Below, piece by piece: positions 23,239 through 52,403 of a stretch of 64,000 nt of DNA. The notes under the pieces were generated by a model, which was not told the DNA's origin, did not search any database, and saw only the letters and a program-made list of their open reading frames with translations. The first letter of the stretch is position 1, and the number at the start of each line of letters is the position of its first letter. The stretch is from Lysobacterales bacterium (lineage in GTDB: Bacteria > Pseudomonadota > Gammaproteobacteria > Xanthomonadales > SZUA-36). Where the stretch lies: NCBI GenBank assembly GCA_014238945.1, contig JABAAB010000078.1, forward strand, positions 1-64,000. The letters run 5' to 3'. The position numbers and the translations under genes are program-made.

Positions 23239-23324
23239 CCGGACCTGGTCCTGCTCTGCTGCTAACAAGCATGACGGCACATTTGCTTGACAAGCAGGGA
23301 TTAATCTATCAATCTCACATTCGA

Positions 23325-23525
23325 GTCTGCAGGTGTCCTTCTGACTGCTCAGTCAGGGGATTAAACGGGAAGACGGTGCGCCAATCACAGGCTATTCCGT
23401 CGCTGCCCCCGCAACGGTAGGCGAAGGTATGGGTCATCGCAGCCACTGTGCTTGGGCATGGGAAGGCGACCCGTCAGAGGCGATCAAAATTCGCCCTTCG
23501 CAAGCCCGGAGACCGGCCAGCAGTT
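23325..23525 (+). promoter_or_regulatory. cobalamin riboswitch
   Basis: The leader of the BtuB-like gene contains the conserved blocks of a B12 riboswitch in order: GGTGTCCTT, TTAAACGGGAA (23371-23381), CCGTCGCTGCCCCCGCAACGG (about 23397-23417), GCCACTG (23441-23447), GGGAAGGC, and the B12 box CGCAAGCCCGGAGACCGGCC at about 23500-23519. Binding of adenosylcobalamin or its relatives would repress expression of the receptor downstream. About 145 bases separate the aptamer from the start codon, enough for an expression platform, but no U-tract terminator is evident, so control is likely at translation. Confidence 0.93.
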
Positions 23526-23669
23526 TTATTCACTTGTGCAATCGCGGCGGGCGGAGGCATGTGGGTACTGACTCCCCGGCACCACCAGTAACCAGGAACA
23601 GTCTCCCAGCTTCAACCGGCCACCAAGCGCAACCCCGCGCGTTCGGGTGAGAACGTCCTGGAAATTGAG

Positions 23670-51589: not shown

Positions 51590-51615
51590 AACCGGGGCAA
51601 TGCCCCGGTTTTTTT
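51590..51615. terminator. bidirectional-looking Rho-independent terminator
   Basis: AACCGGGGC and GCCCCGGTT form a nine-pair stem with a three-base loop, followed by seven T in total and preceded by six A, so it could act in both directions. It ends the PuuD-like gene and insulates the RNA locus downstream from it. Confidence 0.85.
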
Positions 51616-51776
51616 GTTCCTTGAAAGTTAATTCGAGTCATTTTTAACCATTCTTATTCGCTTCATCGCAAAGCTGAAGATGACGTATTTTTCATGTTGT
51701 TTTTCTATTCATAAGCTTGTGTTTTTTTACTCATGCACAAGTTGAGAAAAGCGCTCTAACTGTTGATTTTTAATCT

Positions 51777-51805
51777 TTGACATTGGGTTCATCCGGTAGT
51801 AACTT
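51777..51805 (+). promoter_or_regulatory. sigma-70 promoter of the candidate RNA gene
   Basis: A perfect TTGACA (51777-51782) is followed after 17 bases by TAACTT (51800-51805), which keeps the three most important -10 positions (first T, second A, last T). The predicted start is near 51812. No reading frame with a ribosome site follows, which points to a non-coding transcript. Confidence 0.55.
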
Positions 51806-51811
51806 AGATCC

Positions 51812-52229
51812 CCCGTTACATGAAACCCAACAGCCGAAAGGCTGGAGTCGCAGGAAGAACGGAAGCGGTCGAAAGACCGGATTCGAACGGAAAGCGAGTC
51901 AACTGGAAGGCCGACCCGCCGGAAGGTTGAAAGGGTAGAAGACAACGGACAGCGCCCAGGTGGTACAGGGCGCGTCACCCGGACCGGGTTCTGCCAAAAG
52001 AAGCGGTCGTACCATAAGGGTGGCTCGAGAGGGATACGCGGTTCCTTGAGATAGACGTGAAACACGTCGATAAATAAAAGCGGGGAGAAGACTCGCGACC
52101 AGAAACCGAAGGGCAGAACTGATCGGAACTGGACAAAGTTGGAAAGGCCTAGGAGGATCTGCAGTCCACCGTAAGCGGAGTTCCTACACTTCTACGACGA
52201 GGGAGGCGCAAGCCTCCCTCGTTTTTTTT
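51812..52229 (+). ncRNA. candidate structured non-coding RNA, about 415 nt, unassigned family
   Basis: A stretch without any supportable protein gene is packed with stable hairpins. CAGCC-GAAA-GGCTG (51831-51844) and CGGTC-GAAA-GACCG (51866-51879) have GNRA-type loops. GATTCG pairs with CGAGTC. GCGCCC/GGGCGC enclose a 10-base loop, ACCCG/CGGGT flank GAC, and GACGTG/CACGTC surround AAA. A perfect ten-pair terminator with a GCAA loop and eight T closes the transcript. About eighteen GGA trinucleotides are scattered through it, which recalls CsrA-titrating RNAs, but most do not sit in the AGGA loops of those RNAs. It does not match the conserved blocks I know for tmRNA, RNase P RNA, 6S RNA or SRP RNA. 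It has its own promoter and lies between two terminated units. Confidence 0.6.
52198..52229 (+). terminator. Rho-independent terminator of the RNA gene
   Basis: CGAGGGAGGC (52198-52207) and GCCTCCCTCG (52212-52221) make a perfect ten-pair stem with a GCAA loop and eight T. There is no gene within 600 bases upstream on this strand other than the terminated PuuD-like gene, so the terminator must belong to the RNA transcript. Confidence 0.88.
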
Positions 52230-52403
52230 GGCCCCGATATATCTGCTCACAATACCCCCTTAACTTGCCGTCAGCTGCGCAGATGACCTCTGGCACCCTA
52301 TGATTCCACAATTTTCATAATACAATTGCATATCGTACTATTGAAATAAATCACATTGTCCAACGGTCTGATCTTCGGTCATTGTGGAGAAAGAGGGAAA
52401 TTA

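Follow-up and report, generated by a model that had tools for sequence, protein, structure and literature searches.

What is encoded by an interval that begins with a promoter-like sequence, ends in a terminator, and offers no supportable reading frame? The question is raised by the DNA ahead of a set of mla genes in a 64,000-nucleotide stretch from Lysobacterales bacterium (assembly GCA_014238945.1, contig JABAAB010000078.1, positions 1 to 64,000 of the forward strand; lineage Xanthomonadales; SZUA-36), hereafter the window. An initial annotation, made from the letters of the window, had read this interval as a stand-alone gene for a structured RNA of unknown family. Comparison with homologous DNA points to a folded RNA gene of ~415 nt, with an inferred span of ~51815-52229 on the plus strand, which is present in a single copy in its own genome (blastn) and almost certainly represents a real new RNA family. 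The fuller statement, that this is an independently transcribed non-coding RNA of a new family that acts in trans as a scaffold, is evenly balanced between belief and doubt.

Fold, covariation, and known families

Both folding energy and compensatory change argue for a conserved structure. The 415-nt RNA has a predicted energy of -156.5 kcal/mol versus -129.8 ± 5.1 kcal/mol for shuffled sequences (z = -5.3; 0 of 100 as low). Among 19 contiguous sequences, a structure of 94 pairs in 17 helices has standard pairs in 95.0% of the alignment cells. The initial annotation had held that an absence of covarying pairs among homologues would speak against such an RNA; instead, 38 of the 94 pairs have changed on both sides (double-changed hereafter), in 137 cells, versus 21.8 pairs and 42.2 cells in shuffles, none of 500 of which is as high. 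Slid controls, over which the 94-pair structure has an advantage because its helices were partly derived from the tested sequences, give 5-13 such pairs. Further pair types in the same structure reach the observed value in 2 of 500 shuffles, and RNAalifold applied to larger core sets finds double changes in 14 of 27 and 16 of 32 pairs. Compensatory changes are therefore found beyond the controls, as a new family would require. The features of the locus are as follows.

~51590-51616, plus strand: terminator-like inverted repeat with a T run, read from the sequence as closing the upstream gene
51657-51671, plus strand: TTCGNTTYRTCGCAA, a conserved element upstream of the promoter, with its end 105 bp from the -35 (exact-word search of loci)
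51707-51719, plus strand: second conserved upstream element, of the ATTCA-N3-RSTTG type (loose pattern), with its end 57 bp from the -35
51777-51805, plus strand: putative promoter, with TTGACA, 17 bases, TAACTT, and then a C-rich stretch; kept among homologues, weak -10
51815-52229, plus strand: RNA gene; start inferred, end at the T run
51831-51844, plus strand: 5′ GAAA-capped hairpin (fold)
51848-51897, plus strand: site I, a domain closed by UCGC/GCGA, with one 28-nt hairpin unit (51859-51886) in the window (fold, comparison)
51899-51930, plus strand: helix 1, 51899-51904 with 51925-51930, around a GGC/GCC hairpin; 6/6 pairs double-changed, 88.6% of cells paired
51906-52056, plus strand: conserved 5′ core, model R1 (alignment and covariance model)
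51935-52195, plus strand: long-range closing helix, 51935-51941 with 52189-52195; 78.2% of cells paired, 3/7 pairs double-changed
51952-51973, plus strand: hairpin with the conserved GGUGGUAC loop; 6/6 pairs double-changed
51960-52015, plus strand: proposed pseudoknot 1, loop 51960-51966 with 52009-52015 (pairing potential in homologues)
51988-52119, plus strand: proposed pseudoknot 2, 51988-51995 with 52112-52119; 94.0% paired, 2/8 pairs double-changed
52030-52046, plus strand: hairpin AGGGA/UUCCU; 100% paired, 4/5 pairs double-changed
52047-52075, plus strand: site II, the GAGAUAGACG...CGUCGAUAAA hairpin (alignment of homologues)
52065-52221, plus strand: conserved 3′ core, model R2 (alignment and covariance model)
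52198-52229, plus strand: intrinsic terminator (scan); 6/10 pairs with changes on both sides
52321-52326, plus strand: TACAAT, likely the -10 of a separate mla promoter, outside the RNA (recurrence among loci)

The two hairpins with GAAA loops that had been picked out initially are both present, the second at 51867-51878. Proposed pseudoknot 1 joins the GGUGGUAC loop to GUACCAU; at least five Watson-Crick pairs are possible in all 35 sequences, those of family f5 included, in a count made without a shuffle control, and in the 19-sequence set five of its seven pairs are invariant and none is double-changed. Proposed pseudoknot 2 was not found by eye in the members from genera g8 and g10. The stretches GAGAUAGACG, CGUCGAUAAA, and UGGUA are kept even in divergent members.

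The RNA had been said to fit none of the familiar housekeeping RNAs, and a scan against Rfam had been proposed as a check. The whole window was scanned with the 4227 models of Rfam 15 at the gathering cut-off of each family, and the RNA has no match; at E values up to 10, its region gives two chance fragment matches only. The same scan of ten loci with homologues, divergent ones included, gives only two tRNAs. The sole gathering match in the 64-kb window is a cobalamin riboswitch at 23314-23535 (109.5 bits). No prior description of the RNA was recognised in the literature searched, which consisted mostly of abstracts. Phage and plasmid collections hold no match to the RNA, and a phage or plasmid origin was rejected on that ground; the one viral-contig match to a core pattern (L115) was taken as chance because it has no R1 match.

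Homologues, gene borders, and neighbourhood

The homologue search and covariance model proposed in the initial annotation yielded dozens of relatives and three models, R1 for the 5′ core, R2 for the 3′ core, and R3 for the centre with divergent members. By blastn, the RNA occurs in 30 of 101 genomes, its own included, 29 of them in its own family f1, which we take to be GTDB family SZUA-36. Of 398 genomes of the order, R1 matches 33, every one from f1. R3 matches 37 of the 398: besides 33 of the 39 f1 genomes, these are three from f5 (E 2e-7 to 5e-7) and one with a partial match that was counted as chance. The f5 loci also match R2 at the expected place, and the RNA is present in three of the four f5 genomes. 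Six f1 misses and one f5 miss were still empty at E 0.5, in a run made without a positive control. Searches of the class (369 genomes; R1 and R3) and the phylum (339 genomes) returned the own genome as the only match. In the order, class, and phylum searches, which ran under stricter Infernal filters, no more than six to eight candidates were scored in each genome, and distant relatives may thus have escaped.

Several candidate places were set aside. An R3 match in G238 (E 7.5e-4) was counted as chance because only the first hairpin and the model 3′ end aligned and R2 gave no match, and a blastn match in G090 was rejected, as it covers 36 bases at the terminator end of a locus without an R1 match. 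G004 and G006 have two R1/R3 places each, all at contig ends, which are read as assembly breaks rather than second copies. An exact core word occurs in 18 named contigs, all from metagenome-assembled genomes; 14 of the 18 are labelled Lysobacterales, Xanthomonadales, or Gammaproteobacteria, and one is isolate SZUA-36.

Comparison of the loci also sets the borders of the gene. The TTGACA at 51777-51782 and the TAACTT at 51800-51805 are spaced by 17 bases as initially described, though this -10 is weak and agrees with TATAAT at just three of six positions. A strict promoter scan reported no promoter, and the promoter call therefore rests on conservation: TTGAC, a spaced GTA-TT-type -10, and a C-rich stretch recur as an exact pattern in 24 of 28 loci. 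Seven further loci (g8, g10, and contig ends) were excluded before this analysis, and the four loci failing the pattern were dropped, which leaves the set of 24 RNAs used for the GGA counts. At the 3′ end, the expected terminator of ten pairs and eight T is present at 52198-52229 (12 pairs by terminator scan), and the inverted repeat with a T run that was thought to isolate the RNA upstream is found at ~51590-51616.

Two elements precede the promoter. An exact TTCGNTTYRTCGCAA occurs in 27 of 35 loci (the own and the fetched context loci); where its distance was measured with the promoter, it stops 103-106 bp short of the -35, except in L093 (95 bp), and genera g8 and g10 carry near forms directly before the -35. 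In 23 of 24 loci, 56-57 bp separate the -35 from the end of the second element, whose loose pattern was picked after inspecting the sequences. Such near-fixed spacing suggests regulators, and the two elements are likely regulator sites. DnaA-box-like words (TTATCCACA, TGTGGATAA, or TGTGGACAA) lie near the promoter, upstream of the -35, in L067, L070, L071, and L089, which are the only such loci among the 24 and all belong to genus g11.

The genes after the RNA in the window are, by Pfam, an ABC ATPase, MlaE, MlaD, MlaC, and MlaA, and protein clusters place mla genes downstream in all 29 f1 loci outside g8 that have downstream sequence, an arrangement that would suit a cis-acting leader or attenuator of the mlaFEDCA operon. 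However, other genes flank the RNA on both sides in all three g8 loci and in all three f5 loci. Its neighbour in g8 is an aspartokinase-like gene, and two of the g8 loci have ychF- and pth-like genes on the opposite side; in f5 it is flanked by glnE-like and mnmC-like genes, and two of the loci also have a transposase-like gene. These g8 and f5 names were assigned by reading translations. The conserved terminator also speaks against a leader, as does the TACAAT that follows it before mlaF in 24 of 28 loci (a count without a shuffle control). A leader or riboswitch would share its transcript with one kind of downstream gene, which is not the pattern found; because the RNA occupies three different neighbourhoods, it is not simply the leader of the mla operon, and that explanation is very improbable. 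The stand-alone gene of the initial annotation agrees well with these neighbourhoods and with the conserved promoter and terminator. The chance that a coding sequence on either strand accounts for the locus is close to negligible. Open stretches in the RNA region of the window reach at most 76 codons on the plus strand and 94 and 127 codons on the minus strand, and some homologues have longer ones on either strand (up to 173 codons on the plus strand in L075). Few stop codons are expected in the complement of a purine-rich strand. Among homologues the open stretches shift in frame and length on both strands and the alignment has single-base gaps; with no conserved frame, a coding reading was rejected, in line with the view taken initially.

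Hairpin arrays at two sites

Lineage-specific hairpin arrays of varying length occupy two places in the fold. At site I, genus g1 has 95, 152, 209, or 431 nt before the core, lengths taken to represent 1, 3, 5, and 13 units. The longest array, that of L086 (L086:175-538), has 13 units at a 28-nt step, with four of four stem pairs in 10 units, three pairs in two, and two pairs in one. Double changes occur at all four stem positions of this array, in 12 cells versus 4.9 in shuffles; the stems of the L086 units are thus largely maintained by compensatory change. Site I of L095 and L083 carries a different repeat. Two regularities are recorded here as observations: GNRA loops cap all seven odd-placed units of L086 and none of the six even-placed ones, and the unit counts of seven genus g1 RNAs are all odd (1, 1, 1, 3, 3, 5, and 13).

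At site II, nine relatives have 200-559 nt in place of the apical loop; the value for L073 is 237, L076 has tandem units of 34 and 58 nt, and the loop is also longer in g8. Sites I and II are never both expanded in one RNA among the 24 measured. In a tree of 28 cores, with group labels assigned by hand, the site II array group forms one side of a branch (support 92/87) next to two array-free RNAs. Word analysis of the 13 arrays among the 24 RNAs (five at site I and eight at site II) gives CGGA and GGAA the highest mean over-representation of all four-letter words (mean z 2.4 and 2.2), and both words are present in every array.

A proposed scaffold and its rivals

These features would be most simply accommodated by the following mechanism. 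The conserved core of ~315 nt, closed by the long-range helix and tied by the two proposed pseudoknots, would provide a fixed platform, two surface sites of which accept short hairpins in series, flanked by purine-rich, CGGAA-like sequence. Once expressed, the RNA would act in trans as a scaffold: the core would fold and probably bind one conserved partner, and each hairpin unit may be a docking site for a second partner, in which case array length would set valency. The initial annotation had likewise proposed a trans-acting or protein-sequestering RNA. CsrA is a candidate partner, since csrA is present in the genome and CsrB has no match there. The scaffold mechanism is held tentatively, at somewhat below an even chance. 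A broader joint reading, in which the RNA is a bacterial counterpart of repeat-bearing long non-coding RNAs, with a folded core and a copy-number-variable array that lies at either of two alternative sites and tunes multivalent protein recruitment by its length, is more doubtful.

Several results weigh against a conserved scaffold with functional arrays. The closing helix is the weakest of the helices and fails in 22% of cells, and two helices of the closer set are lost when RNAalifold is run on the set with divergent members. Folded by itself, the stretch 51840-51920 at site I has no advantage over shuffles (z = -0.43, with 64 of 200 as low). In the L086 units, further pair types are no more numerous than in shuffles, 395 of 500 of which reach the observed count. 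The covariance search did not find the RNA in G012, a 96% complete f1 member. Lastly, 14 of the 28 tree cores, the window copy included, carry one site I hairpin or none by the hand-assigned labels, so multivalency is not universal.

Other functions must be set beside the scaffold. The initial annotation had counted about eighteen GGA motifs, which is exact at 18, and had raised the titration of CsrA; the RNA would then be a CsrA/RsmA sponge, a sequence-unrelated counterpart of CsrB or RsmZ that sequesters CsrA on these motifs. The genome has one csrA match and no CsrB (RF00018) match, in a search whose control matched in E. coli; an RF00166 search also gave no match, with uninformative controls, and RsmY was left out of the whole-genome search. 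GGA stands above the shuffled mean in 21 of the 24 RNAs and in all 13 arrays (z 0.6-2.8); for 12 of these 13 arrays, its density exceeds that in the core. GGA falls below the shuffled mean, however, in three of the 24 RNAs, and ANGGA, the context that CsrA prefers, is not enriched beyond composition as a sponge would be expected to show (5 versus 4.5 ± 1.8 shuffled in the window RNA; z -1.8 to 1.7 in the 13 arrays). GGA in the L086 units lies beside the stem and not in the loop, and a sponge would leave the conserved core unexplained. Thus, the mild enrichment of GGA stands from the earlier idea, while CsrA titration as the principal function was rejected, GGA being only mildly enriched and ANGGA not at all; a sponge is unlikely.

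A catalytic RNA or a large ligand-binding RNA would explain why GAGAUAGACG, CGUCGAUAAA, and UGGUA persist down to divergent members, and is a slightly poorer prospect than the sponge. Ribozymes are among the Rfam families, none of which matches, and a metabolite sensor normally lies within an mRNA, where this RNA probably does not. On a par with the sponge is an RNA-only homo-oligomer of the OLE/ROOL/GOLLD sort, in which hairpins would make contacts between copies. The present RNA resembles the large ornate RNAs that are reported as multimer-forming (PMC12286853) in its size, GNRA loops, proposed pseudoknots, and strongly conserved core. ROOL and GOLLD are described as phage or prophage RNAs (PMC12286853), whereas this RNA matches nothing in the phage and plasmid collections. 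The lack of an Rfam family match likewise speaks against a homo-oligomer, and arrays of variable length would alter its geometry.

Few families of large structured bacterial RNAs are known, and several are without a function. The RNA described here offers a covariation-supported model, clear borders, and a range within one bacterial order as sampled, and its natural variation, from 0 to 13 hairpin units at two alternative sites, constitutes a ready-made experiment on the role of RNA repeat arrays. OLE, ROOL, and GOLLD are among the Rfam families; in contrast, this RNA matches neither Rfam nor the phage and plasmid collections and carries, at two sites, arrays whose hairpins vary in copy number, of which we know of no equivalent in those families. 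It shares with them a long, structured, pseudoknotted (here proposed) architecture and a poorly understood function, and the three are reported to form multimers (PMC12286853). Like CsrB and RsmZ, it combines repeated hairpins containing GGA with its own putative promoter and terminator; unlike them, it has a conserved core with proposed pseudoknots, no CsrB match, no ANGGA enrichment, and GGA flanking the L086 stems. RsmU of Xanthomonas campestris, an RsmA-sequestering small RNA described among mRNA-derived small RNAs (PMC7694677), is an RsmA-binding RNA from a relative in the same broad group and is set beside the present RNA by description only. The STAXI motif, reported as tandem pseudoknot repeats, often with UUCG loops (PMC2864571), likewise repeats small structured units; here, by contrast, no Rfam family is matched and the repeats are simple hairpins inserted into a larger conserved RNA.
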